A DNA stretch of 64,000 nucleotides from Methanolobus bombayensis (lineage in GTDB: Archaea > Halobacteriota > Methanosarcinia > Methanosarcinales > Methanosarcinaceae). Position 1 is the first letter of the stretch. Each line of letters begins with the position of its first letter. Position numbers and translations under genes: made by a program. This document shows, piece by piece, positions 20,801 through 53,972 of this stretch. Location of the stretch: positions 124,001-188,000 of the forward strand of contig NZ_JAGGKD010000005.1 of the NCBI RefSeq assembly GCF_017873415.1, read 5' to 3'. Below the pieces are notes generated by a model, which was not told the origin of the DNA, did not search any database, and saw only the letters and a program-made list of their open reading frames with translations.

Positions 20801-21440
20801 TCTTTCCTTCAAAATTGTGGATAAGTTGAGGATTAGATGGCCGCGTTTCTGAAGTATTGATTCTTACTTCCACAATGTTAGTACTGGAATTATAATCTAT
20901 CCATGCATGCTTGATGTTTGTATTCCCAAGATCTAAGTCGCCTGCAAGAGCCGTGCTATTTAGAGAAGTAACACTACCATTAATATCAATTCCGACGTGA
21001 CTACCCGAAACCTCTGAATTATCAAATGTATCAAACTCTATTCCGATACTGTTGTTGATACCTTCATAACCTATGCCTCCTCCTGTGCTACCTTCATCAT
21101 TTGAGTTTGGTTGAATTACAAAAACGATACCATCTGCGCCAGTAGATACTGGACTGGTTATTTCGAATGTAAAATATGTACTGAAAGAACTATCGTTCCC
21201 AATAGATACCTTATCCTTAAGGAATGCACTTCCATGCTGATTTTGTTGGCTTGGAGTCAAACGTAGTTTTGTGCCAGACTGATATGCATCTCCATTCAAT
21301 TGAAATCGTGAAACATCGGAAAAGTTTTCATATGCTGCCGTGATTGTTTTGTTCTCAACAGATTCTGCTGTTGTTATTGTTAGACTTAATGCGATTAAAA
21401 GTCCCAGTAACAAAACAATTGTTTTTTTGTGTTTTCCCAA
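17853..21440 (-). CDS. Giant cell-surface protein: L-type lectin, Ig-like, PKD domains
   Basis: This protein of about 1195 residues has a signal peptide (Leu-rich, residues 6-25), then a legume-lectin-like domain (about 30-245, with GADGIVFVIQP and IGIEFDTFDN). A bacterial Ig-like domain follows at about 265-355, then several Ig/cadherin-like repeats, and a PKD domain near 740-820 (WLWDFGDGNTS). The C-terminal domain ends in the FSPFAI motif, like the domain that precedes PGF-type tails in Methanosarcinales. A Ser/Asp/Glu-rich linker and one C-terminal membrane helix with basic residues close the protein. TTG at 21440 is chosen because AAGGAGAG lies six bases upstream and the signal peptide starts there. 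It is paralogous to the protein at 39535-43020. Confidence 0.85.
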   Translation of the reverse strand: MGKHKKTIVLLLGLLIALSLTITTAESVENKTITAAYENFSDVSRFQLNGDAYQSGTKLRLTPSQQNQHGSAFLKDKVSIGNDSSFSTYFTFEITSPVSTGADGIVFVIQPNSNDEGSTGGGIGYEGINNSIGIEFDTFDNSEVSGSHVGIDINGSVTSLNSTALAGDLDLGNTNIKHAWIDYNSSTNIVEVRINTSETRPSNPQLIHNFEGKTLRDIIGYDEAFVGFTASTGGAWENHDILSWYFTNTYDPIDINTYSYDEAPTQVILTLDPTNYTTTSNVTATVKDASGNTVSDWPVTFSATNGTFDSSSGSTDAEGNITTAFSYPEEDITIISIKATAEGGAYEEFLLKTANEAPSTPGAFTTPTENQILKGGETLTVGWGSSTDPENHDITYDLWFFNSTWSMIRSMLGTNSASFTLPADNTDSAMFRVYANDTMDNSSARDVTFTIDSTKPVIEISGNPAEWQNSSATIDVNITDLTAMQSVKWAAGVQDTAYFGLSGTTIDDPYTFTVNNNGSYTVYAEDAAGNTNVTTFNVTKIDSENPSVSFSTNGSSTYANSHSTTVSSSDEVAGLQELGFAWNQSADENSVSSWTSFNSGDTLTKDSVSGDWYLHVRAVDNASNIIHSVSNVFKLDNEVPSYSWIQKPVNANTGDNITIELNVTDNAGISSANITVDGQEHQMNESSGNYSWNISIPASDSGTLVSSIDFNCTFTDVAGNVNSTGDNLINVAILPIADFSANVTRGTQPLSVNFTDNSSGLVESWLWDFGDGNTSTDQNPVHTFDSGNFTVNLTVTNINGSSSSLMNIRAAPEPEYTLTPATMEQISLYGDEMNFSINSTLLSSFEWFIDGAPLNGTGVTTDASTDDSTNSSYCKINTSQYFNQDDYYMGIYNISVSVSNQSIGRTDTSSWEWTVTSSSSASDNDDIAFIINQSANVTASGNESQVVFNTTDDSRTDNDGIHGSIIAISFNTTNESTGILTKIEFLNRSSINVTDAGFSADSVYQYFDISFNNETLVNNGSDRNIEFRVLNERNGQVLVRNSVRLRHWSNPAWEAYTPEFTRNDGTYSYFIVRNLSGFSPFAITCDYEQVSPSTNTDDGMPWYLKKMLLGIGSDEKEITENETIVSEDSGSEDSIVIDNNDEAKANEGNAESDSEDTERSAGGNSSRTIFGTVAIIAVAASAIIFLKNKGGRDKL

Positions 21441-48689: not shown

Positions 48690-48730
48690 TTAAATATCAC
48701 AATTGTGTATTAGATGCTATCACAATTGTG
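48690..48730 (+). promoter_or_regulatory. Promoter with two CACAATTGTG operators
   Basis: The perfect palindrome CACAATTGTG occurs at 48698-48707 and 48721-48730, 23 bases apart centre to centre (about two helical turns). The first abuts a TTAAATAT TATA-like box, so binding would block transcription. A near-copy (nine of ten) lies at 48774-48783. The same palindrome lies in the promoter of the adjacent HTH regulator at 49502-49511. Confidence 0.7.
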
Positions 48731-48754
48731 ATTTGGCAGGAATTCTGTCTGATA

Positions 48755-48866
48755 TCGGGTTGTAGGGTGGCTACACAATTGTCCTTTGCAATATGCCGGT
48801 TCGAATCCGGAACCTGAATTGAGGTATTATACCTCAGATATAGCGCAGGGGCTTCCAGGCTCCTGC
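48755..48866 (+). other. Structured leader, partly tRNA-like, upstream of the ubiquitin-like gene
   Basis: TCGGGTT (48755-48761) can pair with AACCTGA (48811-48817), GTAG with CTAC (48762-48774), and CCGG-TTCGAAT-CCGG resembles a T-arm. This gives an acceptor, D-arm and T-arm like layout, but the D-loop is too short, the anticodon loop lacks U33 and the total is only 63 bases, so it is not a functional tRNA. It is followed by perfect TGAGGTA/TACCTCA (48820-48836) and GCAGG/CCTGC (48845-48866) hairpins. Confidence 0.4.
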
Positions 48867-48930
48867 TGAAAAACGTCCTATCCTTAAATCAACCTCTAAC
48901 ATCCATTGTATTTTTGATATGAGGACTAAC

Positions 48931-49125
48931 ATGAAAGTAAAACTCCCTTCCGGCAAGACTGAAGTAATAGATATGGAATCAGCAACAGTTGAGGAACTCC
49001 TTCAATATTTATCCATAAGTCAGGGAGAAGTACTTGTATCCAGGGACGGGCAGATAATTCCTGTAGACACAGTACTTAACAGAGAGGACAATATTCGTAT
49101 TATGCAGGTGGTTTTTGGTGGTTGA
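48931..49125 (+). CDS. Ubiquitin-like beta-grasp protein (ThiS/MoaD/SAMP type)
   Basis: This 64-residue protein has the beta-grasp pattern of sulfur carriers and ends in VVFGG, the C-terminal Gly-Gly that is adenylated and thiocarboxylated or conjugated. MKVKLPSGKTEV and ISQGEVLVSRDGQIIP match ThiS/MoaD-like strands. ATG 48931 is preferred over an in-frame ATG at 48919 because GAGGA lies just upstream. Its promoter carries CACAATTGTG operators, and an E1-like gene lies 550 bases downstream. Confidence 0.85.
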   Translation: MKVKLPSGKTEVIDMESATVEELLQYLSISQGEVLVSRDGQIIPVDTVLNREDNIRIMQVVFGG

Positions 49126-49137
49126 ACCTATTCTGGT

Positions 49138-49455
49138 TCAGACATTATTATTGACACATTGCTGTTCTTCGTCTCTTAATTGTTTACAAATACTGCAAAT
49201 TCTGGATGCCAGATCATCAACACGCTTTGCTTTCATATCTTCTGCAAGTTTACGTATGGATTCCTTTACATCATCTTCAAGCACAATTCTGTAGCCTCTT
49301 TTTTTAGACAGGTACTGTGAGACTGCAGAAGGAGCCATATCCAGCTCTTTAGCTATTTCCTGCTGTGATAGTCCGCAATTCATAAGTTCTTCTGCAATGG
49401 CTGCTCTAATCGCGGGTAATACGTCCCAGACTATCATCTGACATGGTAATTTCAT
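49138..49455 (-). CDS. XRE-type HTH regulator with C-terminal Cys pair
   Basis: This 105-residue protein begins with MKLPCQMIVWDVLPAIRAAI, then a helix-turn-helix at about 25-50 (GLSQQEIAKELDMAPSAVSQYLSKKRG), and ends with CSICKQL and a further Cys. It matches the archaeal COG2522 type. The CxxC and extra cysteines suggest metal, Fe-S or redox sensing. A GTG at 49464 is also in frame. Its own promoter has CACAATTGTG at 49502-49511, so it is probably an autoregulator and also controls the converging ubiquitin-like gene (inference). Confidence 0.85.
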   Translation of the reverse strand: MKLPCQMIVWDVLPAIRAAIAEELMNCGLSQQEIAKELDMAPSAVSQYLSKKRGYRIVLEDDVKESIRKLAEDMKAKRVDDLASRICSICKQLRDEEQQCVNNNV

Positions 49456-49501
49456 GATTTTCACTTTTTGTTGCTTTTTGGTTAGTAAATAGAAAACAAC
49501 T

Positions 49502-49511
49502 CACAATTGTG
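49502..49511 (-). promoter_or_regulatory. CACAATTGTG operator in the HTH regulator promoter
   Basis: This perfect copy of the palindrome sits directly downstream (in the minus direction) of an AATATATTC TATA-like box and about 47 bases before the regulator start codon, between box and predicted transcription start. This is the same geometry as in the ubiquitin-like gene promoter. Confidence 0.65.
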
Positions 49512-49675
49512 AATATATTCTTCATATTAAATATCTTTTTTTGAGTCCACCAAAATAATATCCTGCTACTGAATCGGAGTTCTGACCCTGTGGACTTATA
49601 TTATTTGACTACTTATGGACTTTACATAGGTCATTCATGAATTGAAGATTAAATCCATATTTAAGGGTACACTTT

Positions 49676-50416
49676 ATGTTAACTGATGAAGAACTTGAAA
49701 GGTACAGCAGGCAGATAATGCTTTTTGGTGAAGGCGGCCAGGAACGCTTAAAGGGAGCTACTGTTTTCATTGCAGGAGCAGGAGGTCTTGGCTGTCCCGT
49801 TTCTCTTTATCTTGCAGTTGCGGGAATTGGTAATCTGAGAATTGCAGACAAAGATGCAGTGGAAAAGACAAATCTCAACCGTCAGGTCCTTCACTGGGAA
49901 AAAGATATCGGCAAAGAAAAAGTAGGGTCTGTGGAGGAAAAACTCAGGATGATCAATCCTCATATCAACGTTCAATCATTTCATCTGACTATAGATGAAT
50001 CAAATATAATGGAGCTTGTGGACGATGCAGACCTAATAGTTGATGCCATGGACAATTATGAGGTGCGCTATCTTTTGAATAAGATTGCCCATGAGAAAAA
50101 CATCCCACTGGTTCATGGTGCCATTCGTGGTTTTGATGGCCAGGCCATGACGATCATTCCTGGAAAAAGTGCATGTTTTAATTGTGTATTCCCTTGTGAA
50201 CCACCATCAGAAACCTTTCCGGTGGTAGGTGTAACTCCTGGGATCATTGCAATGATACAGGCAAATGAGGTTCTCAAATACCTGTTGGGAAAGGGCAGGC
50301 TTCTGACAGACAGGTTAATGATATGGGATGGGCTCAATTCTGAAATGGAATACATGCGCGTTTCAAAAAGACAGGAATGCAGAATATGTGGAAATGGTGA
50401 TGCAGGTCATGGCTGA
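49676..50416 (+). CDS. ThiF/MoeB/HesA-family E1-like enzyme
   Basis: This 246-residue protein activates ubiquitin-like sulfur carriers by C-terminal adenylation. Visible are RYSRQIMLFGEGGQERL, the ATP-binding GAGGLGCPVSLYLAVAGIG, the arginine finger region NLNRQVLHW, and DAMDNYEVRYLLN. Zinc-ribbon cysteines lie in CFNCVFPC (the CxxC pair) and CRICG. Its carrier partner could be the 64-residue protein at 48931. TATA-like TTATATTATT lies about 80 bases upstream. Confidence 0.92.
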   Translation: MLTDEELERYSRQIMLFGEGGQERLKGATVFIAGAGGLGCPVSLYLAVAGIGNLRIADKDAVEKTNLNRQVLHWEKDIGKEKVGSVEEKLRMINPHINVQSFHLTIDESNIMELVDDADLIVDAMDNYEVRYLLNKIAHEKNIPLVHGAIRGFDGQAMTIIPGKSACFNCVFPCEPPSETFPVVGVTPGIIAMIQANEVLKYLLGKGRLLTDRLMIWDGLNSEMEYMRVSKRQECRICGNGDAGHG

Positions 50417-50594: not shown

Positions 50595-51254
50595 ATAACC
50601 GGTGATAACTCTAATGCAAAGGATGCCAGGGATTTTGAAGATGCTCTTTTGTCCTTGAACAGGGTTGCTGCACATCAAATGATATGTAGTAAATTCACAG
50701 GTGACAATGCCTTTGAACTTATAAGGAACATCATTGCACCAGCTCTTGAAAATATAGGAGATATGTGGAACTGTGGTGAAATTGCCCTGTCACAGGAGTA
50801 TATGGCAAGTAAGATGTGTGAGGTAATTGTTGAAGACATCCTTCCTTCAGAGAGTTCTTCCAGAAAGAATCAGCCTATTCTGGGAATCACAACCCTTGGG
50901 GATGAACACATGTTAGGCAAACGAATAGTCATTTCATTCCTCAAATCCTGTGGTTTTGATGTTCACGATTATGGTGATATGGCTCCTGAGAATGTTGTCC
51001 GCAAAATAGCTGAAGATAATGTTCAGGTTATCCTGGTTTCAACATTAATGCTTAATTTTGCACATGAGGTCAAGAAGCTCAGATCAATTCTCGAAAGTAA
51101 TGGCTCTGGTACCAAAATAATAGTAGGAGGTGCTCCATTTATGTTCGATCCTGATCTGTGGAGGGAAGTAGGTGCCCATGCAATGGCAAATGATGCAACA
51201 GAGTCTCTTGACGTTATATGCAAATTAATGGGGGGTAATACCTGTGTCAACTGA
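50595..51254 (+). CDS. Corrinoid protein (methyltransferase cognate, MtbC/MtaC-like)
   Basis: This protein of about 219 residues has a helical cap domain (about 15-95, LIRNIIAPALENIGDMW and ALSQEYMASK) and a B12-binding Rossmann domain (about 100-215). The cobalt-ligand motif is DEHMLG, i.e. D-x-H-x-x-G, followed by the S-x-L loop STLMLN and the GGAP motif. It carries methyl groups between methyltransferases. The first conventional start is TTG 50649, which would cut the first cap helix. GGTGGTGA at 50583-50590 lies four bases before an in-frame ATA at 50595, which restores the helix and is used here. It overlaps the downstream methyltransferase gene. Confidence 0.88.
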   Translation: MTGDNSNAKDARDFEDALLSLNRVAAHQMICSKFTGDNAFELIRNIIAPALENIGDMWNCGEIALSQEYMASKMCEVIVEDILPSESSSRKNQPILGITTLGDEHMLGKRIVISFLKSCGFDVHDYGDMAPENVVRKIAEDNVQVILVSTLMLNFAHEVKKLRSILESNGSGTKIIVGGAPFMFDPDLWREVGAHAMANDATESLDVICKLMGGNTCVN

Positions 51255-52284
51255 AGAGATGAGCTCCATGGAAAGAGTTCTCACAACACTGGACCACAGG
51301 GAACCTGACATAGTTCCTTATTTTCTGTTATTGACAACGCAGGGTGCAAAGGAATTTGATGTTTCCATTGAGAAATACTTCTCTGATCCCGAGATGGTTG
51401 CATCTGCCCAGATAAGTATGCAAAAGAAATATGGTCATGATTGTTATTATTCATTTTATTACGCATCACTTGAACTTGAGTCATGGGGTGGGAACACTGT
51501 TTTCTATCCGGATGCATCTCCAAATTGTGGCCTGCCGCTTATCCATGACATCAATGATATTTCTTCCCTTGAAGCACCTGACGTATATGAGTCTCCTGGG
51601 TTGCAAAAGGTTCTGAAAACAACGTCTATATTAAAGGAACATGCAGGAACAGATATTCCTATAATAGGTGTTGTCATGTCTCCTTTTGCCCTGCCTTCAA
51701 TGCAAATGGGAATGGATCATTATTTTGATCTTATCTATGAAGACCCGGACATTTTTGAAGAATTAATGGATATAAACAAACAATTCTGCATTCAGTGGGC
51801 AAATGCACAACTGGAGGCAGGTGCCACAGCTATCTGTTATTTTGATCCCATTTCTTCTTCTACAATAATTCCTCCTGAACTTTACAGGAAAACCGGATTT
51901 AAAGTCGCAAAAAGTACTCTTCACGGAATAAAAGGACCCACTGCAACTCATATGGCATCAGGAAGATGTCTTCCCATAATCAAAGATATTATCAAAACAG
52001 GAACTTCAATAGTATGTACAAGTGTTCTGGAAGATCTTGCTGAGGTAAAAAAGGAATGTTATGGTAAAATATCTGTTCTTGGAAATCTCAATGGTATAAA
52101 AATGCGCCACTGGTCTCTGGAAGATACTGAAAGTAAAGTAAAGGAGGCTATTGATAAGGCTGCTTCAGGTGGGGGTTACATTCTGTCGGACAACCACGGT
52201 GAAATCCCATACACAGTTCCGTCCTCTGTAATAAATGAAATTTCTCGTTCTGTAAGAAAATGGGGATATTATCGGAGTAACTAA
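51244..52284 (+). CDS. UroD/MtaA-family methyltransferase lacking the usual Zn-Cys ligands
   Basis: This 346-residue TIM-barrel protein resembles methylcobamide:coenzyme M methyltransferases (MtaA/MtbA) and uroporphyrinogen decarboxylase relatives: ERVLTTLDHREPDIVPYF at the start, LEAGATAICYFDPISSS and TGTSIVCTSVLEDLAEVKK. In MtaA/MtbA zinc is held by H-x-C and a later Cys. Here the first site reads H236-M-A and the last reads D-N-H318-G-E, so both Cys are missing. It may therefore act on something other than coenzyme M, or serve as a sensor partner. The GTG start overlaps the corrinoid gene; the stop overlaps the kinase start by one base. Confidence 0.85.
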   Translation: MSTEEMSSMERVLTTLDHREPDIVPYFLLLTTQGAKEFDVSIEKYFSDPEMVASAQISMQKKYGHDCYYSFYYASLELESWGGNTVFYPDASPNCGLPLIHDINDISSLEAPDVYESPGLQKVLKTTSILKEHAGTDIPIIGVVMSPFALPSMQMGMDHYFDLIYEDPDIFEELMDINKQFCIQWANAQLEAGATAICYFDPISSSTIIPPELYRKTGFKVAKSTLHGIKGPTATHMASGRCLPIIKDIIKTGTSIVCTSVLEDLAEVKKECYGKISVLGNLNGIKMRHWSLEDTESKVKEAIDKAASGGGYILSDNHGEIPYTVPSSVINEISRSVRKWGYYRSN

Positions 52285-53972
52285 TGTTTCGTAATCACCA
52301 AGTTCTTGCACCGGATTGTATCAGGGAAGAGGTAGAGCAGGTTCTAAATGCTAATGTCCTGTTCAAGGGGATCAAATATTCATTTTTTGACTATCTGGAA
52401 GATTTTGGAGATTTTGAATCAATTTTCGAAGTAAGCCGGGGAATAATAACATCCGGAAATAACATTCTTCTTATATGCAATAATCCCTGCCCTGAATTTG
52501 AAATTCCTGATGAATATTCCCAATCTTTGAAGATAAGAAGGGTGAATCATCTTTATTCTCTTTTTACTGAAGAACTTGTATTGGAAAAACACAGGAAAAA
52601 TGATGCTTTTTTTGTATCCCCGGGCTGGTTTGAATGCTGGGAGAAGAATCTGATATCTACAGGTCTTTATGAATCGGGTAAAGGTGATCAATTTCTGGAG
52701 TCATATTCTCATGTTCTAGTAATGGATACAGGCCTACATCCAAATTTACTCGCTCATGCAGACGAGTTTTCAAGAGTAACAGGTATTCCCTATAAGGTAA
52801 TTTACGTAGGAATGGATTATTTCAAATTATCCTTTGAGAATTTGCTATTCAAATGGAACATTAAAAAGAAACATGATGAACTAAAGGTCTGTAAAAGACA
52901 ATCTGCAACATATGCCATGTCGCTGGATTTCATAAAATCACTTGCTGATATGAACGATGAAGCTGCAACTATAGAAGCTATTTGTAACCTTTTCAGCATG
53001 ATGTTTGCTCCTCGTTATGTTGTTTACTATTCTGTAAATGGTGAAAGTATGGAGTTTGCATATTGCAAACCGACTAATACTGAACAAAAAGCCATTTTTA
53101 AGTTGAAGGATTCAGATTCCAGTCATTTTGTTTTTGAAAAAGGGGATGGCTTTGCAATAAAAATACAAATGTCAGGTGATCTTCTCGGTATAATTGAAAT
53201 CCGTGAAATTGCCTTACCTGAAAACATGGATGAATATCTCAGTATAGCTTATGATATTGCAAAAGCAGCAAGTCTGGCTATATCCAACATAAGAAGATAT
53301 TATGAGCTCTTCGAATCAAAAGAAGAACAAGCAAAACTTGCTGAATTACTTCGAACCACAAACAGTATTTTGAGACATGATATTGCTAACAATTTACAGG
53401 TTATAACCATGGCTCTTGATCTTCTGGAAGAAAAAGGAGATAGTTCTTATATATCAATGATAAGGAATGCTACGAAAAAAAGTGCTTTGCTCATAACCAG
53501 CGTTAAAGGACTTGATATGAACTCTTCAGGGCGATGTGATCTGGAAGTTGTTAATGTCAAGCAAGTTCTTGAGTCATCAATGAACAGGCATGATGTGGAA
53601 TTTACTATGGAGGGCAATTGTAATGTTATGGCTGATCAGGCACTATTGTCGGTATTCGATAATATTGTAAGTAATGCAATTTCTCATGGAAAAGCCACTG
53701 AGGTAAAAATCAAAGTTGCAAAATTGAATGGTCGCTGCCAGATTTCAATTGCTGATAATGGAAAGGGTATTCCTGATAGTGTAAAACCCTATATTTTCAA
53801 TGAAGGATTCATACATGGTGAGGCAGGAAATACGGGAATAGGTCTCTTTGTAAGCAAAAAAACGATTGAGCGCTACAATGGTTGCATTCGTGTTGAAGAT
53901 AATGTACCTTCAGGTGCCAGATTTATTGTTGAACTGGATCTTGTAAATCCAAAAGGTAGTTCTGGCAACTAA
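52284..53972 (+). CDS. DUF1638-like/GAF-like histidine kinase
   Basis: This 562-residue soluble protein starts with a DUF1638-like domain at about 1-195 (VSPGWFECWEKNLISTGLY, VMDTGLHPNL), a family that occurs beside corrinoid methyltransferase genes. A GAF-like region covers about 205-340. HisKA has H365 in SILRHDIANNLQVI, and HATPase_c spans about 440-552 (DNIVSNAISHG, DNGKGIPD, NTGIGLFVSKK). There is no membrane helix. TAATG overlap with the methyltransferase gene implies tight coupling. It may sense corrinoid or methylation state (inference). The kinase core is close to that of the next gene. Confidence 0.8.
   Translation: MFRNHQVLAPDCIREEVEQVLNANVLFKGIKYSFFDYLEDFGDFESIFEVSRGIITSGNNILLICNNPCPEFEIPDEYSQSLKIRRVNHLYSLFTEELVLEKHRKNDAFFVSPGWFECWEKNLISTGLYESGKGDQFLESYSHVLVMDTGLHPNLLAHADEFSRVTGIPYKVIYVGMDYFKLSFENLLFKWNIKKKHDELKVCKRQSATYAMSLDFIKSLADMNDEAATIEAICNLFSMMFAPRYVVYYSVNGESMEFAYCKPTNTEQKAIFKLKDSDSSHFVFEKGDGFAIKIQMSGDLLGIIEIREIALPENMDEYLSIAYDIAKAASLAISNIRRYYELFESKEEQAKLAELLRTTNSILRHDIANNLQVITMALDLLEEKGDSSYISMIRNATKKSALLITSVKGLDMNSSGRCDLEVVNVKQVLESSMNRHDVEFTMEGNCNVMADQALLSVFDNIVSNAISHGKATEVKIKVAKLNGRCQISIADNGKGIPDSVKPYIFNEGFIHGEAGNTGIGLFVSKKTIERYNGCIRVEDNVPSGARFIVELDLVNPKGSSGN

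Follow-up and report, generated by a model that had tools for sequence, protein, structure and literature searches.

The window analysed here is a stretch of 64,000 nucleotides from Methanolobus bombayensis (contig NZ_JAGGKD010000005.1), and it raises a simple question: why does a ten-base palindrome, CACAATTGTG, stand at the promoters of both a small HTH regulator and a ubiquitin-like sulfur-carrier (SAMP) gene? A preliminary description of the locus took the regulator to repress itself and the sulfur-carrier gene. To answer the question, one needs to consider whether the palindrome is a genuine operator, which protein binds it, which genes it would control, and what signal that protein might read.

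The operator

Exact copies of the palindrome start at 48698, 48721 and 49502, as the preliminary description had reported, and there are no others in the window. These three copies compare with a mean of 0.15 in 100 dinucleotide-preserving shuffles, none of which reached three. A copy with nine of ten bases does lie at 48774, but the statement that copies occur only in promoters or leaders does not hold at this level of matching, because there are two more 9/10 matches, one within the regulator gene (49282) and one at 20810. Genome-wide, there are eight exact cores versus two of a reversed control. Five of these eight lie outside the window, four of them in ORFs and one in an intergenic position without matching flanks. 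The palindrome is thus not scattered at random.

Judged from the sequences, the true site is longer than the ten-base palindrome: it reads TTCACAATTGTGAA, with the palindrome as its core. Across Methanosarcinaceae, this longer site is found at the promoters of the HTH regulator and of sulfur genes. An extended form, TCACAATTGTGA, has 50 copies versus 7 of its reverse in 27 genomes of the genus Methanolobus. In 44 regulator-centred loci (0.80 Mb), 94 sites match TTCACAATTGTGAA with at most one mismatch versus 0 for the reversed motif, and 92 of them lie outside ORFs (at least 100 aa), though 77% of locus bases are inside ORFs; 6 of the 44 loci have no site at this threshold. This set includes the window and excludes L063, a stretch shifted to take in a known site; L086, L191–L203 and L255, which were chosen to surround known sites or second copies; and L095, whose homologue is more distant. 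At the same threshold, the species' own genome holds only 3 sites versus 2 reversed, so for this species the evidence comes from the window and from its relatives.

A chance cluster of a short palindrome would fit one of these counts: with up to one mismatch to the core, the window contains 6 matches versus a chance mean of 3.93, which is not above chance. The exact copies and the conservation of the sites across the family speak so clearly against such a cluster that we give it practically no weight, and we rejected it on the shuffle counts together with the 94-to-0 contrast in the regulator-centred loci. The palindrome is real and, judged by its conservation, functional.

Promoters and genes of the locus

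The SAMP unit begins with a TATA-like box, TTAAATAT (48690–48697, plus strand), which was found by reading and is conserved in an eight-locus alignment. The exact core (48698–48707) of operator 1, ATCACAATTGTGTA (48696–48709), follows this box directly, and relatives have the same site, 23 bases from operator 2. Operator 2, ATCACAATTGTGAT (48719–48732), also has an exact core (48721–48730) and lies over the expected transcription start, whose position we take from the TATA distance. The 23-base spacing had been described correctly, and it is retained in eight relatives (L062–L067, L069, L077).

The regulator gene (49138–49455, minus strand) encodes 105 aa from a conserved ATG; its listed ORF starts 9 bases earlier, at GTG. 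Operator 3, TTCACAATTGTGAG on the minus strand (49500–49513, exact core 49502–49511), is its putative autoregulatory site. The TATA-like element of this promoter, ATATTTAATAT (49524–49534, minus strand), again found by reading and conserved, is about 12 bases upstream of operator 3, which would thus cover the expected transcription start of the regulator. The preliminary description had a copy abutting the TATA-like box in both promoters, which is right for the SAMP unit but not for the regulator.

The SAMP/ThiS-like ubiquitin-like sulfur-carrier gene (48931–49125, plus strand) encodes 64 aa ending in GG, with the C-terminus VVFGG. Its product matches PF02597 (37.1 versus a cut-off of 22.5) and PF21965 (34.1 versus 27) and falls below the cut-off of the SAMP2 equivalog NF041919 (35 versus 70 bits). 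The gene is matched in 24 of 27 genus genomes, including the window's own. Divergent from the regulator is a gene for an E1-like activating enzyme of the ThiF/MoeB/UbaA family (49676–50416, plus strand), which in several relatives comes after an operator-linked second SepCysS gene (SepCysS2). After the E1 gene, at 50649–53972, are genes for a B12-binding corrinoid-type protein, an MtaA/UroD-family methyltransferase and a histidine-kinase-like protein; many relatives have homologues of the first two beside their regulator cluster as well.

A tRNA-Cys relic in the leader of the SAMP unit

The leader of the SAMP unit contains a decayed tRNA-Cys (48755–48817, plus strand), as indicated by reading, alignment, a consensus fold and an intact counterpart in relatives. 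Its acceptor strands are TCGGGTT (48755–48761) and AACCTGA (48811–48817), and its T-arm is CCGG-TTCGAAT-CCGG (48796–48810). Neither ARAGORN nor Rfam recognises a tRNA at 48755–48817. The relic also accounts for the 9/10 match to the core: CGCAATCGCC of the intact tRNA-Cys, which extends as far as the anticodon stem on its 5' side, has here decayed to CACAATTGTC (48774–48783, plus strand). We considered a fourth operator at this position and rejected it, as the match is part of the relic and the position is not operator-like in relatives.

Two leader hairpins follow, TGAGG...CCTCA (48820–48836, plus strand) and GCAGG...CCTGC (48845–48866, plus strand), the second succeeded by GAAAAACG; both are conserved according to the alignment and the consensus fold. 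The relic and the two hairpins are common to seven close species, the window's included. Their consensus fold has 33 pairs, 4 of which changed on both sides, and a weak covariation term of -0.44 kcal/mol. The operators and the relic persist in G001, whose one-contig genome lacks a SAMP match, and this hints that the RNA has a function; alternatively, the SAMP gene may have been lost recently. We also noted the motif AAAAACG(T), which in several relatives occurs both before tRNA-Cys and past the last leader hairpin (upstream of SAMP in L069 and L073), and which in the window occurs only after the hairpin (48868–48875).

Operator-linked tRNA-Cys and the second SepCysS

In seven relatives, an intact tRNA-Cys(GCA) lies between the operators and the SAMP gene. 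Across the regulator-centred loci, an operator (up to two mismatches allowed) is present within 100 bases upstream of 18 of 20 tRNA-Cys genes versus 0 of 24 other tRNAs. The site ends 3–20 bases before the tRNA-Cys in many loci, i.e., over the expected transcription start, and 40–63 bases before it in some Methanosarcina-type loci. Other tRNA-Cys loci have no site at up to one mismatch in the stretch examined (0 of 18), and in all six of these other copies that we examined with Rfam, 23S and 5S rRNA genes flank or adjoin the tRNA.

All 27 genus genomes carry SepCysS copy 1, with a site in 0 of 26 loci. A second, longer SepCysS is found in 8 genomes and has sites in all 3 loci examined. The window's species lacks the second copy. 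The linked tRNA-Cys is intact in 7 of the 8 genomes with SepCysS2 and decayed in 10 of the 11 without: in a table of the 19 genomes whose operator-linked tRNA is either intact or a relic, 7 have both intact tRNA and SepCysS2, 1 has intact tRNA only, 1 has SepCysS2 with a relic, and 10 have a relic without SepCysS2. Fisher's test on this table gives p = 0.0012, but the tree contains only one (counting supported branches) to three independent pairs, so the coupling is not significant once kinship is counted. The table covers the genus minus the 8 of 27 genomes that have neither (G003, G008, G010, G012, G013, G015, G017, G023); intact and relic calls were made by eye, and G006 was scored intact for the tRNA-Cys genes in its second regulator cluster. 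In that cluster, L086 (G006:C6:278700-298699), four tRNA-Cys genes surround another copy of the regulator (61% identical); genes for SepCysS, homocysteine synthase and E1 are there too, along with several operators.

The regulator and its link to the operator

The regulator is an HTH_3/XRE-like protein (PF01381, 25.3 bits versus a gathering score of 23), and COG2522, the label also used in the preliminary description, is presumably its group. ArsR-type profiles are below cut-off (HTH_5, 21.1 versus 22 bits; HTH_metalloreg, 19.7 versus 55), and no Rrf2 domain is matched in Pfam or NCBIfam. Apart from sub-threshold matches, only HTH families in these two collections match the 105 aa at E <= 0.001, leaving no ThiN-like ligand domain. 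An AlphaFold model is of middling quality, with a pLDDT of 72.6 and both ends below 50, and it does not resolve the C-terminal end. A fold search with this model found no match at E <= 0.001, and a sequence search of solved structures gave weak matches only, mostly to designed proteins.

Is this protein the one that binds the operator? It has matches at E <= 0.001 in 43 of 60 relatives, some of which are to a paralogue only. Conservation of the palindrome upstream of regulator homologues, a check proposed in the preliminary description, is found: 19 of the 30 best homologues have the exact core no more than 130 bases upstream of the gene, and several of the other 11 have near-matches such as CGCAATTGTGAA, CACAATAGTGA and TAACAATTGTTA. 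The site at the regulator promoter in most Methanolobus is TATTCACAATTGTGAG, after a TTTTTAAGATT- or TATTTAATAT-like box. Co-occurrence points the same way. Of 111 family genomes, the 78 with the regulator (a match better than 1e-20) have 423 sites and 51 reversed, while the 33 without have 29 and 12, and among 20000 within-genus permutations of the labels, 71 gave a contrast as large as the observed one. The exceptions, with sites and no regulator match better than 1e-20, are G119 (75% complete; 11 sites) and G032 (4 sites, 1 reversed).

An alternative is that another factor binds the palindrome—for example, a ThiR-type regulator or a 34%-identical paralogue—and that the HTH gene is only a target. 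ThiR is an archaeal one-component HTH regulator with palindromic operators, a related HTH part and a C-terminal ThiN-like ligand domain. Several species have a one-mismatch site at thiM-thiE, and thiamin genes are predicted, in a passage of PMC10746257, to be under ThiR control; a related HTH paralogue is also present in most family genomes. However, identity with ThiR was rejected since the regulator has no ThiN domain, and genomes with only the paralogue are generally without sites (G017 0, G003 1, G107 0, G113 0, G036 0, G092 0). Sites track the regulator within genera, and another genus, Methanocalculus, has the two together: in L174, genes for the regulator, LarE, SufS and FdhD stand in a row with a divergent hydrolase-CBS gene and an exact operator. 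The paralogue is therefore an unlikely binder, and we consider the whole alternative highly improbable.

Very probably, then, the HTH protein binds the operator and represses itself and the SAMP transcription unit. The preliminary description's proposal is supported in silico by the co-occurrence and the 19 own-promoter sites, but its scope was too narrow: the SAMP promoter is that of a tRNA-Cys(-relic)-SAMP unit, and the predicted regulon reaches far wider, into sulfur, cysteine and Fe-S supply.

Predicted targets

Putative targets are the SAMP gene, the regulator, the second SepCysS, cysteine desulfurases/IscU, TusA, FdhD, LarE, homocysteine synthase, NadA and, as the least expected member, tRNA-Cys. 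For example, other Methanolobus have genes for a SufS-like cysteine desulfurase and FdhD after the regulator and genes for SepCysS, an E1-like enzyme and MoaE opposite it, with NadA adjoining. Other sites precede tusA-dsrE2-desulfurase-NifU-like genes and thiM-thiE, or adjoin a PAPS-reductase-like gene and a PHO4 permease. The window's own genome has further sites at a tusA-dsrE2-cysteine desulfurase-NifU-like operon (C2:273797) and at thiM-thiE (C3:231886).

Two genomes of a large-genome genus, g7 (to which G099 belongs), have 16 and 18 sites, the majority of them no farther than about 50 kb from regulator genes. These stand at genes for desulfurase-IscU, NadA, homocysteine synthase, hydrolase-CBS, LarE and a cysteine-synthase-like PALP protein, and at an operon with a homocysteine-biosynthesis (HcyBio) protein. 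A few sites adjoin genes that have no obvious connection to sulfur (chemoreceptor-like, PEP carboxylase, LrgB), so the target list is not clean.

Two side observations concern gene rows and site variants. An operator-preceded row in L192 (1672–6392, G127) encodes a radical SAM protein, an ABC ATPase, a CobW-like GTPase, an Fe-S protein and an HcyBio homocysteine-biosynthesis protein, and L196 has a row of similar gene sizes. The thiM-thiE promoters (G000:C3:231886, L147, L153, L154) have a one-sided variant, TTTACAATTGTGAA, which could instead be the site of a ThiR-type factor; thiM-thiE was identified as such in L103, and in the others by gene size and order only.

Proposed mechanism and signal

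Our preferred explanation, to which we assign a probability of about three in four, is that the 105-aa HTH protein is the autoregulated repressor of a sulfur/cysteine-supply regulon. The regulator, presumably as a dimer, would bind TTCACAATTGTGAA, which lies either in the interval from TATA box to start or on the start itself, and because of this position it would block transcription initiation. When the supply of sulfur, cysteine or Fe-S falls, it would lose a ligand, most likely an Fe-S cluster, held at Cys5-Cys87xxCys90-Cys100, and release the DNA. Release would raise, as a set, the regulator, sulfur carriers (SAMP, TusA), homocysteine synthesis, NadA and sulfur mobilisation (cysteine desulfurases, IscU, FdhD, LarE). 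In many lineages it would also raise an extra tRNA-Cys and the second SepCysS, which together would form an inducible duplicate of the tRNA-dependent route to cysteine. The window's species has no second SepCysS, and its operator-linked tRNA-Cys has decayed to the relic described above. The model is built on the sites, their positions, conservation, gene content and co-occurrence, from which we infer binding, repression and ligand.

The sites could instead activate transcription. They lie, however, downstream of the TATA box and ahead of or on top of the expected start, positions at which archaeal repressors usually act. Position and autoregulation thus argue for a repressor, and we regard activation as unlikely.

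Redox or metal sensing, as proposed in the preliminary description, is a tentative reading. The CxxC motif of the preliminary description is present, but it is part of a larger conserved set: of the regulator's cysteines (Cys5, Cys27, Cys87, Cys90, Cys100), C5 is conserved in 55 of 55 regulator sequences, C87 and C90 in 54, and C100 in 51. Four conserved cysteines would be enough to hold an Fe-S cluster or zinc, and for an Fe-S-binding regulator such a set would be necessary but not sufficient. The same four occur in all nine paralogue sequences, and so also where sites are absent, which means that the set alone is no mark of a sulfur sensor. The paralogous family (L241–L248; 35–43% identical in eight sequences) occurs in most family genomes, operator-free ones among them, and L255 (8322–8573, G126) holds a truncated second regulator copy without the C-terminal cysteines.

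With the same regulator and regulon, what the protein senses might be a small molecule or the redox state of thiols (free cysteine, Cys-tRNA, sulfide, or a disulfide at CxxC), with the four cysteines holding a structural zinc or serving as a thiol switch rather than as an Fe-S site. CxxC...C plus an N-terminal Cys is a usual zinc or thiol-switch arrangement, the cysteines shared by the paralogues suggest a structural role, and the targets cover cysteine and homocysteine synthesis besides Fe-S assembly. On the other hand, strict anaerobes have little reason for a disulfide switch, and many of the targets either take part in Fe-S assembly or are themselves Fe-S enzymes (IscU, NadA). We rate this alternative a serious one, at a little below even odds, and because of the target genes we favour a sensor of Fe-S or sulfur supply acting through the four-Cys site.

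Comparison with known systems

One-component repressors with palindromic operators are already known; what sets this one apart is the regulon and the operator at tRNA-Cys genes. IscR, a bacterial Rrf2-family Fe-S regulator, offers a parallel in its autoregulated control of cysteine desulfurase/IscU genes, possibly via cluster occupancy, but the Rrf2 match is absent here and operator and taxon are unrelated. Our regulator resembles ThiR as an archaeal one-component HTH protein with palindromic operators, and differs in having no ThiN ligand domain and in its sulfur/cysteine/Fe-S regulon, where thiM-thiE is minor. SurR, which carries a CxxC, is likewise an archaeal regulator of sulfur-linked genes, but its targets are in hydrogen and S0 metabolism, its operator differs, and the ArsR-family match here is below cut-off. 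SurR of Thermococcales is described, in a passage of PMC10746257, as a sulfur-responsive redox regulator.

Clade VII SepCysS genes often have a tRNA-Cys gene and a small number of sulfur genes for neighbours, as reported by Mukai et al. 2017 (PMC5424206) in passages that name no regulator or operator ('regulat' has 0 occurrences in the main text). The linkage is the same as ours, and we infer that SepCysS2 belongs to this clade; the difference is that here an operator ties these genes to a single putative repressor and stands at the tRNA gene itself. The iscS2-iscU2 cluster of M. acetivorans, as covered in part of PMC7585200, groups IscSU with methionine and NAD genes, as in L205, and that part gives no regulator, whereas here an adjacent HTH gene and operators are proposed as the control; in M. 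acetivorans, this neighbour of iscS2 is presumably MA2719. The open-licence literature that we searched contained no description of the regulator or operator.

Significance

Methanogens have a very high demand for sulfur and Fe-S, and the open-licence literature that we found names no transcription factor for cysteine/Fe-S supply. This analysis supplies a named gene, an operator and the putative targets, all in a group that includes the genetically tractable Methanosarcina. It would also be an unusual case of a dedicated transcription factor with an operator at tRNA-Cys genes, the substrates of cysteine synthesis on tRNA, and it makes testable the idea that cells separate a 'biosynthetic' from a 'translational' tRNA-Cys.

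We tentatively go one step further, with somewhat less than an even chance of being right: Methanosarcinaceae may have a housekeeping cysteine system (rRNA-linked tRNA-Cys, SepCysS1) and a repressor-controlled one (dedicated tRNA-Cys, SepCysS2, desulfurases), with the relic as a regulatory or scaffold RNA. If this is true, then a tRNA gene would itself be a sulfur-regulated biosynthetic gene, and the relic of the Methanolobus clade would be a structured, non-decoding tRNA-like RNA under operators, kept even in a species without SAMP.
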